Source of the DNA: Desulfurobacterium thermolithotrophum DSM 11699
Lineage (GTDB): Bacteria; Aquificota; Aquificia; Desulfurobacteriales; Desulfurobacteriaceae
Assembly (NCBI RefSeq): GCF_000191045.1
Contig: NC_015185.1
Coordinates: 688,501-752,500, forward strand
Length of the DNA: 64,000 nt
Direction of reading: 5' to 3'
A program made the position numbers and the translations under genes. Positions 39,621-48,149 of this stretch are shown here, piece by piece. A model generated the notes under the pieces. That model did no database searches. It was not told the origin of the DNA and worked only from the letters and a program-made list of their open reading frames with translations. The number at the start of each line of letters is the position of its first letter. Position 1 is the first letter of the stretch.

Positions 39621-39996
39621 TTATAACTTAAACCTGATAGGTAAGAGTTTTTCTAAGGTAAAGACTTCAAATTTTTTGCCATTAGTTACTATGATTTCAA
39701 AATCTTCAGAACAAAACTCAGCCATGACCTGTCTACAAGCACCACAAGGATAAGGCATTCCGTCTGGAGAGTAAATTAGCATACTAAAAAAATTTTTTTT
39801 CTCCTTTAGAAACAGCTTTAAATATAGCGGTTCTTTCAGCACACATAGTTAATCCATAAGAAACGTTTTCAATATTTACTCCTGTATAGAATTCTTTTTT
39901 ACCAATTAAAACAGCTGAAACGTGAAAGTTAGAATAAGGACAATAAGAGTTTTTTATTGCTTTTCTTGCGATATTTAGCATTTCCTCTACTTTCAT
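39621..39996 (-). pseudogene. cdd: Cytidine deaminase, frameshifted in an A8T7 tract
   Basis: The two halves are in adjacent frames. The first (start at 39996 after a GGAG site) reads SYCPYSNFHVSAVL and MCAERTAIFKAV, the second reads PDGMPYPCGACRQVMAEFC, together the Zn-binding CAE and PCxxC motifs of a cytidine deaminase of about 125 residues. The break lies at 39786-39800, a run of eight A then seven T on the coding strand; one fewer T gives FFSMLIYSPDG in frame. Options: a real pseudogene, slippage-corrected expression, or a homopolymer sequencing error. dCMP deaminase occurs elsewhere in the window. Confidence 0.88.
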
Positions 39997-40064
39997 ATTT
40001 ATCTCCATAAATTTAGATTTTTTGGATGAAAATTATACAAACAGTTATGTTAGAATTGATAACC

Positions 40065-42534: not shown

Positions 42535-42600
42535 CCTAGCTTGATTTTTCCGCATTTATGTTTTAATTTTAAATCAAACATTTGTTAGGAGGTACTAACT

Positions 42601-42867
42601 ATGGAAGTAATACCGAAGAGAAAGTTTAAATGTTTTGACTGTGGACACGAGTTTGAAGAACCTTTTGGAAAGCCTCGCTGGATGGTTAAATGTCCAAAAT
42701 GCGGAAGTGAAAACATTGTAAGAGCTGATACTCCTGCAGGATGGTGTGGAAAAGGTTACGGAAGAGGAGCTGGAAGAGGAAGAGGTAGAGGCTGGGGCTG
42801 GTTTGGAGGCTGGAGAAGAGGCGAAGGAAGAGGAAGGTTTGGATTTGGTTGGGGAAGAAAATGGTAA
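42601..42867 (+). CDS. Zinc-ribbon protein with RG-rich tail, 88 aa
   Basis: Residues 1-48 form a zinc ribbon: FKCFDCGHEFEEPFG..MVKCPKCGSENI, two CxxCG knuckles. Residues ~50-88 are almost only Gly, Arg and Trp (GRGAGRGRGRGWGWFGGW...GRGRFGFGWGRKW), an RGG-type low-complexity tail. The tail would bind nucleic acid or drive condensation in other systems; the function here is unknown. TTAGGAGG precedes the ATG by 6 bases, so expression looks strong. It follows aroA after 66 bases and is convergent with the aminotransferase gene with a two-base gap. Confidence 0.85.
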   Translation: MEVIPKRKFKCFDCGHEFEEPFGKPRWMVKCPKCGSENIVRADTPAGWCGKGYGRGAGRGRGRGWGWFGGWRRGEGRGRFGFGWGRKW

Positions 42868-42869
42868 AT

Positions 42870-43577
42870 CTATATAAAACTTTGAATTATATCTAAAATT
42901 CTCTTTCCCCAGCTTTTACCCGCTGGGGTTTTTAATTCCACTTTTCCTACTCTTTTTACTTGAGCGACATCATATCGAGCACTTGTTATAAATACTTCAT
43001 CAGCAGAAATTAGATCTTCAAGACTATAGAAACCTTCAAAAATAGGAATATCCATTTCTTTTAAAAGATTAAGTATAAATTCTCTTCTTGTCCCGGGTAA
43101 ACAGCCTGTTTTAAGCGAAGGAGTAAAGAAGACACCGTCTTTTACAAAGAAAATATTTGCAAAAGCTGTTTCGGAGATAAAACCATTAATATCAAAGAGT
43201 AAGGCTTCATCTCCACCCAATTTTCTTGCTTCTTCTATTGCATAAATGGAATCCATAATGTCTATTGTTTTGTGAAGAGAAATAGGAGAGTAATAGCGTT
43301 TTATGCTATTAACTGGAATGAGTGTAACAGAGGTTTTTTTCTGGCAAGGACGAGAGTAAATATTATAATTTCCATTTTTGTAAAGAGTTAACCTCACAAG
43401 AGAAACTTCATAATCTGCACTTTCTTCTATCCTTTTTTTGAATTCTTCTAAAGATAGCGAAAGAGGAATTTTAAGTAATTTAGAGCTCTTTTTTAATCGC
43501 CTAAAGTGATAGTTTACAAAGATTGCTTTACCATTTTCGACTCTTACAGTTTCAAATATTCCAAAACTTCTTTCCAT
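42870..43577 (-). CDS. Class IV aminotransferase (ADC lyase PabC / IlvE-like)
   Basis: PLP fold-type IV enzyme of 235 residues. Starts with RSFGIFETVRVENGKAIFVNYHFRRL; has SISLHKTIDIMDSIYAIEEARKLGGDEALLFDINGFISETAFANIFF (PLP Lys, Glu) and CLPGTRREFIL. The size and the FGIFETVRV start suit 4-amino-4-deoxychorismate lyase (folate synthesis); branched-chain or D-amino acid aminotransferase is the alternative. Follows recO after 18 bases. Confidence 0.85.
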   Translation of the reverse strand: MERSFGIFETVRVENGKAIFVNYHFRRLKKSSKLLKIPLSLSLEEFKKRIEESADYEVSLVRLTLYKNGNYNIYSRPCQKKTSVTLIPVNSIKRYYSPISLHKTIDIMDSIYAIEEARKLGGDEALLFDINGFISETAFANIFFVKDGVFFTPSLKTGCLPGTRREFILNLLKEMDIPIFEGFYSLEDLISADEVFITSARYDVAQVKRVGKVELKTPAGKSWGKRILDIIQSFI

Positions 43578-46298: not shown

Positions 46299-47825
46299 TT
46301 AGTGAATGTGATGCTTCTTCTTGTACTTCTCTACCTTCTTCACGTGCTTCTTAATCCAGGATACGTACTTGCTTACGTAATCTGCTCCAAGTCTTGGCTC
46401 TACACTGCTTTCAAGCCACTCTACAAGCTCAAATGCTACTCTGTAAATTCCTTCCCACCAAATGTATCCTGGTGCATAGTGGAACATCGCTATCTCTGTT
46501 GGTCTAACTGCCATCGCTCCAATGTCTCTTACTATCTTCCTGTCAAGTGGTGTGTTAAGTCCCGCCTTCTCAAGGTCTCTCTCAACCTGGAACGCTACTC
46601 TTCTGAAGTAGTCAAGTACTCCCATTGTGAGGTCTCCACCTATGAAGCAGTTTGCTACCCACTGCTTGGTGTGACACTGGGTACACATCGCAAATGCTCT
46701 TTCTCTGTTCTTGATTCCATCTGTCGGATACTTAACGCTTGGTAGTCCTGGGTGTGGTCTTCCCGCTTTCCTTACAAATACTAACTTCCACATTCCAAGC
46801 TTCCACTTACAGATTGAAGCTGGGTTGTGGGTTGGAGCATATATCATTTTATCTCCTTGATATACTGCTCCCATGTGACATGTTCCACATGTCGGCGCAA
46901 AGTAGTCTTGACCAGCCTTTATTGCTGGGGCATCCATGTTCCATTCATCAAACTGAGATAAGAACATTGCTCCATGCATTGATTTTCCAAACATTTCGTA
47001 GTTTGGATGGTCTTCAGATTCGTGACATCTTCCACATGCTCCTATTCCTGCTCTTACTATCTTGAGTCTGAAGCTGTGGAATGGGTGACATGCTGCACAG
47101 TTTCCTATTGTTCCGTCTGGGTTGATAGTTCCTGCCCCTATCATTGGCCATGTACGTAGGTCAAATACTACCTTGTCTTTCGTCTTTTTCGCTATCTCTA
47201 TCTTTGTTCCGTGACAGGAGTAACATCCCCAGTTCGCAAAGATCTTAATTACTGCTGATGCTTTTGGTCTTGGTGTCTTGAGGTTGTTTGGTACTCCAGC
47301 GTATGGCCAGCATGGGTCGTTTATTATATCGTCCCATGTAGATTCTCCGTTTGTTGTTTGGTGCGGTATTACTGTGTTCTTGTCCCATCCCATCATTTGC
47401 ATTACGATTACTGCAAAGTTTCCACCAGACTTAGCTTCTGCTTTCTGGGAAATTAATCCAGAGTGTGCGTGAATTGAGTCCATGTATTCTTTTGCAACTT
47501 TTGGGTGACATACTCCACACTGCTTTGGTGTTACTAGTGTTGAAATTGTGAATCCGTAGTGGTCATATGCTGCTGGGTTAGATTCGTCTGTCTTGTGACA
47601 TTCGTAACATCCTACTCCGTTGTAAAAGTGCTTTGATCTCTTCCAGTCGTTTACTACAAATGGTGTAGCCTTGCGGTGACAGTCAAGACACTGGGATGAC
47701 TCTTTGGAGAGACCAGATGCTGAGTAGTTTGTGTAGTCGTACTTAGCAGCTGCATCGGTAGTATAAATACCAAGTGATAAAATACCTGCAGCTGCTATGG
47801 TGGCTAATTTCATTAGCCCTCTCAT
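46299..47825 (-). CDS. hao: Octaheme c-type cytochrome, hydroxylamine oxidoreductase-like (Hao family)
   Basis: Exported multiheme cytochrome of ~508 residues with eight CxxCH sites: CLDCH, CYECH, CGVCH, CYSCH, CAACH, CGRCH, CGTCH, CTQCH. Order and spacing match octaheme HAO-type proteins; the motifs CGTCHMGAV and CTQCHTKQW are characteristic. Signal peptide KLATIAAAGILSLGIYTTDAAA. In ammonifying epsilon-proteobacteria and Aquificota, Hao-like proteins are proposed to reduce nitrite or hydroxylamine; direction here is inference. ATG at 47825 follows AGGAGGTAGCT. No NapC/HaoC partner is adjacent. Codon use looks less A/T-biased than neighbours, consistent with strong expression. Confidence 0.92.
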   Translation of the reverse strand: MRGLMKLATIAAAGILSLGIYTTDAAAKYDYTNYSASGLSKESSQCLDCHRKATPFVVNDWKRSKHFYNGVGCYECHKTDESNPAAYDHYGFTISTLVTPKQCGVCHPKVAKEYMDSIHAHSGLISQKAEAKSGGNFAVIVMQMMGWDKNTVIPHQTTNGESTWDDIINDPCWPYAGVPNNLKTPRPKASAVIKIFANWGCYSCHGTKIEIAKKTKDKVVFDLRTWPMIGAGTINPDGTIGNCAACHPFHSFRLKIVRAGIGACGRCHESEDHPNYEMFGKSMHGAMFLSQFDEWNMDAPAIKAGQDYFAPTCGTCHMGAVYQGDKMIYAPTHNPASICKWKLGMWKLVFVRKAGRPHPGLPSVKYPTDGIKNRERAFAMCTQCHTKQWVANCFIGGDLTMGVLDYFRRVAFQVERDLEKAGLNTPLDRKIVRDIGAMAVRPTEIAMFHYAPGYIWWEGIYRVAFELVEWLESSVEPRLGADYVSKYVSWIKKHVKKVEKYKKKHHIH

Positions 47826-47855
47826 AGCTACCTCCTGTTCTGATTTTTGATTAAT

Positions 47856-47885
47856 AGTATACTTCTCTAAAATTAGGGTTGTCAA
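47856..47885 (-). promoter_or_regulatory. Strong sigma-70 promoter of the octaheme cytochrome gene
   Basis: Minus strand: perfect TTGACA at 47880-47885, 18-bp spacer, TATACT at 47856-47861. Transcription would begin about 47849, giving a short leader containing the AGGAGG site. Confidence 0.8.
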
Positions 47886-48149
47886 CATAAATTTTTATGA
47901 TTTTTTCTTATAATTATTTTTTTTATTTTTATTACAGAATAAATCTTCTGTTATATAGGGTTTTTGCAGTAAATTTAAATTTCTTCTATAGTTTGCTTAT
48001 AAATACACAATAAGTATAATAGAAAGGAACCGTTCTTTTTGGTTTTACTTTTTTAATTAAAAAATAGAGATGAAGTTTTTATAGGTCTTATTCAAGAGTT
48101 AAATAAGTTTTAGATTAAAGGATACAAAAGCTTGGAAAGAAAAGAAAGT
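47886..48149. other. AT-rich intergenic region upstream of the octaheme cytochrome gene
   Basis: No gene of convincing length on either strand. A plus-strand TATAAT (48015-48020) has a weak TTTGCT -35 17 bases upstream and is followed by a poor AACC..GGTT hairpin and T-rich stretch; a small RNA is possible but not supported. It may hold regulator sites for the cytochrome promoter; I see no clear operator palindrome. Confidence 0.4.

Follow-up and report, generated by a model that had tools for sequence, protein, structure and literature searches.

The gene at positions 42601-42867 (+) of the window, the whole stretch of 64,000 nucleotides of the Desulfurobacterium thermolithotrophum DSM 11699 genome analysed here, encodes an apparently soluble zinc-ribbon protein of 88 amino acids with a C-terminal tail resembling those of IssA and of DUF5320 proteins: a predicted disordered polycation in which glycine alternates with another residue, with Trp, Phe and at least one Cys. 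At the level of sequence, there is good support for a tail of the IssA/DUF5320 kind as regards chemistry and of the DUF5320 kind as regards periodicity. As the chemistry is that of the IssA/DUF5320 kind, we favor binding of metal sulfides over binding of RNA as the function of the tail; by this analogy, we place its chances somewhat short of even.

The zinc ribbon and its distribution

An initial annotation of the region, based on the sequence, had described two CxxCG knuckles, an excellent ribosome site and a tail of nearly pure G, R, W and F. All three were recovered. The frame, which starts with ATG, carries the knuckles C11-FD-C14-G and C31-PK-C34-G within its head (MEVIPKRKFKCFDCGHEFEEPFGKPRWMVKCPKCGSENIVRAD), which is followed by a tail of 45 residues (TPAGWCGKGYGRGAGRGRGRGWGWFGGWRRGEGRGRFGFGWGRKW); G, R, W and F make up 36 of the 46 residues (78%) beyond R41-A42, and a Shine-Dalgarno sequence precedes the start codon by 7 nt (Table 1). 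A tail cysteine (Cys49) and a palindrome around the ribosome site are features that this annotation did not contain. Since orthologues with both ribbon and tail occur in 20 of 136 genomes of the phylum, and substitutions in the tail are mostly synonymous in six close pairs, the frame is not a product of chance. The genome consists of one contig of 1,541,968 bases, and D. thermolithotrophum BSA is described as a thermophilic anaerobic sulfur reducer in the accessible part of PMC3368423.

Table 1. Sequence features in and around the ribbon gene (window positions)
Feature	Position	Strand	Basis or remark
Promoter-like elements TTGATT (42541-42546) and TAATTT (42564-42569), 17 nt apart	42541..42569	+	alignment A4 of 19 upstream regions
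Perfect inverted repeat GTTAG-GAGGTA-CTAAC, GTTAGGAGGTACTAAC	42584..42599	+	encloses the Shine-Dalgarno sequence
Shine-Dalgarno sequence AGGAGGT	42587..42593	+	sequence; ATG 7 nt downstream
Zinc ribbon, residues 1-43, Cys 11, 14, 31 and 34 (predicted fold)	42601..42729	+	alignment, Pfam, AlphaFold
Gly-X tail (X mostly Arg, Trp, Phe), residues 44-88	42730..42864	+	20/20 orthologues, Gly periodicity, low pLDDT
Tail cysteine Cys49 within G-W-C-G	42745..42747	+	tail Cys present in 20/20 orthologues
Intrinsic-terminator-like hairpin	42907..42928	+	consensus scan, 1 found against 0.6 expected

An alignment of 15 sequences (A3) contains 14 invariant columns, including all four cysteines as well as F18, G23, P25 and W27. 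AlphaFold2, run on an alignment of 20 sequences, predicted a folded block over residues 1-40 (pLDDT 76-87); with its two CxxC knuckles, this modelled head places the protein in the zinc-ribbon fold class. A search of solved structures gave no match at E ≤0.001, and the best weak matches were archaeal MCM zinc domains, followed by HypA, Rpo12 and others. In Pfam, the window protein is matched best by Zn_ribbon_8, with a score of 28.7 bits against a cut-off of 34.4, and TIGR02605 likewise stays under its cut-off (20.3 against 31.3 bits).

These models describe the FmdB family (Zn_ribbon_8; PF09723, TIGR02605), and the protein resembles that family in its small size, its low-complexity end and two similarly flanked CxxC knuckles. 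The protein might accordingly be a divergent FmdB-like carrier of a metal (Zn, Ni or Cu) or a protein-docking factor, with the tail as a generic sticky or Cys-bearing end comparable to the Ser/Gly/Cys tails that certain FmdB-like proteins have. Zn_ribbon_8 matches all 20 orthologues; short Cys-bearing tails are also present on the FmdB-type paralogues encoded in the same genomes, and tails rich in S, G and C on some FmdB-like proteins from other phyla. However, the window protein scores below both cut-offs and has the sequence F-G-x-P-x-W between its knuckles, G23 and W27 are missing from both aligned paralogues of the window genome, and the tail is rich in R and W, not in S and C, and we therefore regard this assignment as improbable.

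Searches of the phylum with the protein and with a profile of the ribbon identified orthologues in 17 of the 22 genomes of the window's own family (f1), in one of two in family f2 and in two of seven in family f5, and in none of the 105 genomes of families f3 and f4. All 16 genomes of the window's own family that are at least 90% complete contain one. The orthologue set is clearly delimited, as its 20 members score at least 87 bits with the ribbon profile and the next match 32.9 bits; weaker hits that were read proved to be FmdB-type ribbons, one HypA-like protein and other frames. This distribution could be explained by lineage alone. A scan of contigs across phyla returned at least 58 loci. 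Two of these are orthologues from Desulfurobacteriaceae, and the other sequences given among the matches listed were FmdB-like, HypA-like or other ribbons, none with a tail rich in G, R and W (GRW tail).

Synteny did not yield a partner gene, and this candidate was rejected, as the neighbours differ between genera and no constant operon partner was seen; elsewhere in the phylum they are, as we presume from their sequences, aroA, a U32-type peptidase gene, respiratory genes and others. An origin from phages or plasmids was likewise rejected, as tblastn gave no match in phage or plasmid collections. The ribbon profile matched viral contigs three times, twice in proteins of about 640 residues and once in a frame of 62 residues, none of them with a G/R/W tail. 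The search against Rfam produced nothing close to a gathering score. Within the window, the terminator-like hairpin falls within the end of the convergent frame 42870-43577 (-). Farther away, a frame at 39621-40008 (-), which we take to be cytidine-deaminase-like, is apparently split into the overlapping frames 39784-40008 and 39621-39842, possibly by a frameshift or sequencing error, and the gene at 46299-47888 (-) encodes a large protein with many CxxCH-type motifs, by eye a multihaem cytochrome and perhaps hydroxylamine-oxidoreductase-like. Among the papers found on DUF5320 and on bacterial RNA-binding zinc-ribbon RGG proteins, neither the titles nor the openings of the abstracts pointed to work on this family of ribbons with GRW tails.

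Composition, periodicity and selection of the tail

The tail occurs in 20 of 20 orthologues, with a length of 28-70 residues and a net charge of +5 to +11, and the pooled tails consist of 36.1% Gly, 21.6% Arg, 11.7% Trp, 7.2% Phe and 2.9% Cys. In the window tail, G alternates with a second residue that is mostly R, W or F, rather than forming RGG. Over the 20 tails, pairs of glycines are scarce at lag 1 (z -11.6) and frequent at lags 2, 4 and 6 (z 13.7, 11.2 and 8.0), thus every second residue tends to be Gly. Among the remaining residues, Arg or Lys adjoins an aromatic more often than in shuffled tails (174 against 131.6, z 5.0). In addition, an aromatic residue directly precedes a tail cysteine in 16 of the 20 orthologues, whereas 20,000 shuffles averaged 5.0 and did not exceed 14; as the sequences are related, this count does not represent a probability. 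The AlphaFold2 model predicts the tail to be disordered, with a pLDDT below 50 over most of residues 47-88.

According to Nei-Gojobori estimates, dN/dS in six close pairs was 0.06-0.17 for the tail and 0.02-0.15 for the ribbon, while two distant pairs, in which the alignment is unreliable, gave 0.37 for the tail. Together with the tail statistics, these values indicate that the exact order of residues is held in the short term and the chemistry and period in the long term. The initial annotation had considered that the tail might be a drifted low-complexity end, to be recognised by homologues that lack it. Such homologues did not appear among the orthologues; more distant FmdB-type paralogues lack this tail. 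A drifted C-terminus without function would agree with the wide variation of order and length between genera and with the simple GGN/AGN codons, which favor slippage. It was nevertheless rejected as extremely improbable, as the tail is present in every orthologue, on genome stretches ranging from 27 to 52% G+C, and displays a low dN/dS, a glycine period of two and the aromatic-Cys pattern.

What did not hold was the designation of the tail as RGG-type: the window tail contains six RG but no RGG, the pooled tails have 12% W and each has a Cys, and they resemble the tails of IssA and DUF5320 proteins. The part of the earlier interpretation that stands is a tail that is real, selected, basic and predicted to be disordered, so that binding or condensation of a polyanion is plausible. 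RGG-box proteins, such as SmD1 with its RNA-binding GR tail, have Arg-Gly repeats, predicted disorder and positive charge in common with it, and the window protein produced a weak sequence hit to SmD1 in the PDB. In contrast to them, it is bacterial, has a different ribbon and is rich in Trp with Cys in every tail, and the RGG triplets that are repeated in an RGG box number zero in the window tail and 0 to 3 in the others.

If the polyanion were RNA, the ribbon may dock on RNA, the ribosome or RNA polymerase, the RG/aromatic tail would bind RNA non-specifically and possibly condense, and the protein may repress its own translation at the palindrome. We consider this rather unlikely. The basic, RG-rich and predicted disordered tail agrees with such a role, as do the weak structural hits to MCM, Rpo12 and eS27 and weak hits by sequence, and zinc ribbons are often nucleic-acid binders. 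However, apart from the missing RGG triplets, neither a Trp content of 12% nor the presence of Cys in each tail is expected of RNA-binding RG tails, and the like tails seen elsewhere sit with PF02579 and DUF5320.

GRW ends outside the ribbon gene were also sought at the DNA level. A pattern of the GRGxGRGxG type gave 83 listed sites in the 136 genomes, some 21 of them in the ribbon gene by our count, and in many f3 genomes the reversed control pattern had as many sites or more. Translation of 37 loci (20 with the pattern and 17 others, three of these chosen for protein hits) revealed one further GRW end, in an f5 genome (G106) in which no ribbon orthologue was found. There, a short frame (L189:2478-2630, -) with a helical-looking stretch terminates in FRGRGFGRGWGRGWKHRFGWSF, and by its sequence may represent either a gene that is broken or a GRW end placed on a different head.

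The palindrome around the ribosome site

Across the orthologues, the inverted repeat has the consensus GTTAG-GAGGTG-CTAAC, with one variable position (GTTAG-GAGGTN-CTAAC). Its inner four pairs are whole in 18 of the 20 orthologues, a count that takes in L104, which is not part of the upstream alignment A4 of 19 regions. In L102, one of the two exceptions, three pairs remain, and in L106, the other, four of five, with one pair in each retained through a change on both sides; such changes thus affect two of the five pairs, in one sequence each, and the outermost pair is broken in six of 12 distinct sequences. Further upstream, a TTG and a T/A-rich element some 17 nt downstream of it keep their positions in the 19 aligned regions despite differing neighbours; in the window, this promoter-like pair matches the -10 consensus weakly and was not listed by the consensus scan.

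Of 36 GGAGGT-ATG sites in the window and 19 loci, 15 have the palindrome arms and all of these belong to the ribbon gene. The 14-base core TTAGGAGGTNCTAA occurs once in the window genome and has 29 exact matches in the 136 genomes, 15 before the ribbon gene, five elsewhere in families f1, f2 and f5, and nine in f3 and f4. The reversed control pattern matched once in the former three families and 18 times in f3 and f4, exceeding the count of the true pattern there. Among the other occurrences, a core TTAGGAGGTGCTAA lies just ahead of a conserved frame of 151 amino acids in three f3 genomes (L213 in G036, L215 in G038, L237 in G037), and once ahead of a gene that by eye is IscU/NifU-like (L216 in G039). 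The second GTTAG-N6-CTAAC of the window genome, immediately upstream of an hslV-like gene's ribosome site and at the apparent end of the preceding frame, looks coincidental and was set aside.

A palindrome that is kept with the gene across different neighbourhoods, and the core of which is unique in the window genome, is as expected of self-regulation and thereby speaks for RNA binding. Minimum-energy folds of six leaders at 37 C contained the hairpin in only two cases (the window and L105), which speaks against repression of the protein's own translation through it, and a strong hairpin sequestering the Shine-Dalgarno sequence is unsupported, as the folds vary between leaders. Covariation was slight, with a score reached by 10 of 500 shuffles. 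With slight covariation and a hairpin in two of six folds, we do not claim a stable RNA hairpin, and a site on RNA or DNA bound by a protein is as likely. The accessible part of a paper from 2025 links RGG-coding mRNA with self-binding (PMC11789052), and the palindrome could fit this view. It could also mean feedback by a nucleic-acid binder, which weighs against metal sulfides as the ligand. A conserved palindrome around the ribosome site provides a ready handle on the regulation of the gene.

IssA, DUF5320 and the possible function of the tail

According to the accessible part of its description (PMC5524996), IssA of Pyrococcus furiosus (PF2025) is a thioferrate storage protein that is detected after addition of S0. 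Its tail is described there as cationic, rich in Gly and aromatic residues, predicted to be unstructured, carrying the sole Cys of the protein and proposed to wrap thioferrate; in long-tailed members of the clade the prevalence of W, G and R is conserved and their order is not, and some members have little or no tail. The 20 tails of the ribbon proteins match this description, with their cationic, predicted disordered, Gly/aromatic-rich composition, W, G and R, a Cys and conservation of chemistry over order, and both proteins belong to anaerobic thermophiles grown with S0. As far as the published description goes, the tail here is richer than that of IssA in Gly (36 against 21%) and in cationic residues (23 against 10%). 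The head, on the other hand, is a zinc ribbon and not a PF02579/IPR003731 domain, for which a search of the window genome gave three sites, all outside the ribbon gene, and the comparison sets a biochemically studied protein against a sequence.

With DUF5320 (PF17253), the likeness concerns a Thermodesulfatator protein (L265; 66.9 bits against a cut-off of 27) with the same alternating G-R-G-W core including WC (GRGWRRGRGFGWGRGWGRGWCWRFFGG). L265 has an N-terminal TGPWGEGPMTGRG motif, a helical-looking C-terminal end and no ribbon, whereas neither the N-terminal motif (TGP..GPxTGRG-like) nor the helical end was seen by eye in the 20 sequences. The DUF5320 gathering score was reached in none of the 136 phylum genomes, the only hit being an orthologue tail with 24.5 bits when read through; on a tail alone, the score was 13.6 bits. 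In a set of ten tails, the DUF5320 model matched one at E 0.16 and none of ten shuffles of it; any Pfam hit was found for four of the ten, with a best E of 0.052 and none over cut-off. Alignment of the window tail with the L265 core was no better than with shuffles once the Gly positions were fixed. As no DUF5320 score exceeds the cut-off and the alignment equals such shuffles, common descent of tail and core is not supported, and the likeness, as read from the sequences, is one of composition and periodicity rather than proven homology.

In three genomes of genus g2 (G116, G117 and G118), the ribbon gene directly adjoins a divergently oriented PF02579 gene, which in G117 is followed by two ferredoxin-containing MinD/ParA-type P-loop ATPase genes. 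In G115, also of g2, it is not adjacent, and the adjacency is seen in one genus only. As to an ORP/MinD-ferredoxin cluster, both partners thus lie beside the ribbon gene in G117 and PF02579 alone in two relatives; a query with the MinD-ferredoxin ATPase matched eight of 136 genomes and not that of the window (18 of 27 candidates scored), and an ORP-type cluster is therefore not required. Among the many PF02579 proteins listed for the phylum, 28 were inspected, with one spurious frame set aside, and none of these has such a tail. A GRW-rich protein was also missing from 16 other PF02579-bearing stretches, in which G, R, W, F, Y and M made up no more than 16 of 25 residues, against 22 for an orthologue.

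Outside the phylum, ten genomes that had been reached through loci with FmdB hits, and had not been selected for tails, were searched with PF02579 (found in six) and PF17253 (found in three). In two unrelated genomes among the six with PF02579 (G136 and G138), a GR or GRW module is fused to or beside PF02579; no such tail was seen on or beside it in the sequence read of the other four (G137, G139, G141 and G142), and in G137 a DUF5320 gene adjoins DUF134 with PF02579 on a separate contig. In G136 (L079, Thermodesulfatator autotrophicus), the C-terminus of a PF02579 protein is a GR-rich tail that contains three Cys but lacks Trp. Downstream of its gene lie two genes for P-loop ATPases and a further PF02579 gene, and a different contig encodes a DUF5320 protein with GWC in a core styled like the window tail. 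In G138 (L084, Baldrarchaeota), a GRW peptide of 63 amino acids starting MPWGWGGRGWRGWGRGWGRGWCWW and containing GWC is encoded on the same strand as a DUF5320 gene on one side of it and PF02579 genes on the other, and the nearer PF02579 protein has a DUF5320-like C-terminal stretch (23.1 bits against a cut-off of 27). This row of DUF5320, GRW peptide, PF02579 with DUF5320-like end and second PF02579 (L271:1-1528, -) is, by its gene content, a candidate operon for a metal-sulfide system in Baldrarchaeota. Another PF02579 protein of G138, cut by the contig end, has a GMGRG tail ending GMGRGRGAGMGRGMGRGRWRDTGSW and lies beside P-loop ATPases, two of which have ferredoxin-like Cys motifs by eye.

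We propose an inorganic polyanion as the ligand that the tail wraps and condenses. The likeliest candidates are thioferrate-type iron sulfide or related metal-sulfide clusters, which anaerobes that produce sulfide, such as these, would have to handle. Arg may balance the charge, aromatic residues may pack and Cys may anchor the metal, while the ribbon would stand where IssA has its globular, NifX-like PF02579 domain and would serve as metal site or docking head; the tailless PF02579 proteins of the phylum may act in trans with it. This function is suggested by the match with the IssA tail as far as its description is available, by the L265 core of the same style, by the GR/GRW modules with PF02579 in G136 and G138, by the divergent PF02579 gene in three g2 species and by the confinement of the orthologues, within the phylum set of 136 genomes, to families f1, f2 and f5. 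Against it stand the ribbon protein's lack of a PF02579 domain, the lack of Trp in the G136 tail, an adjacency limited to a single genus and not extending to G115 with other neighbours varying, and the failure to detect an orthologue in five of seven f5 genomes by protein and ribbon-profile searches. The missing GRW-rich proteins in the 16 PF02579 stretches of the phylum, and beside PF02579 in four of six outside genomes, count in the same direction, as do the DUF5320 scores and the tail-L265 alignment. These negatives lowered our estimate from only just below even to slightly less, and metal-sulfide binding stays the favored reading.

The further step, to a bacterial system of iron-sulfide storage or condensates, in which a GRW tail that binds thioferrate has left the NifX-like domain for a zinc ribbon, is under dedicated control by the palindrome and acts as a 'mineral-binding tail' module transferable between unrelated heads, is one that we put forward as doubtful. 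The characterised basis of thioferrate iron/sulfur storage is one protein, the archaeal IssA, in the accessible part of PMC5524996. If the proposal is true, storage of the thioferrate type would extend to bacteria, and the tail rather than the NifX domain would be its portable part; it would also be a warning against taking every Arg/Gly-rich tail as RNA-binding.
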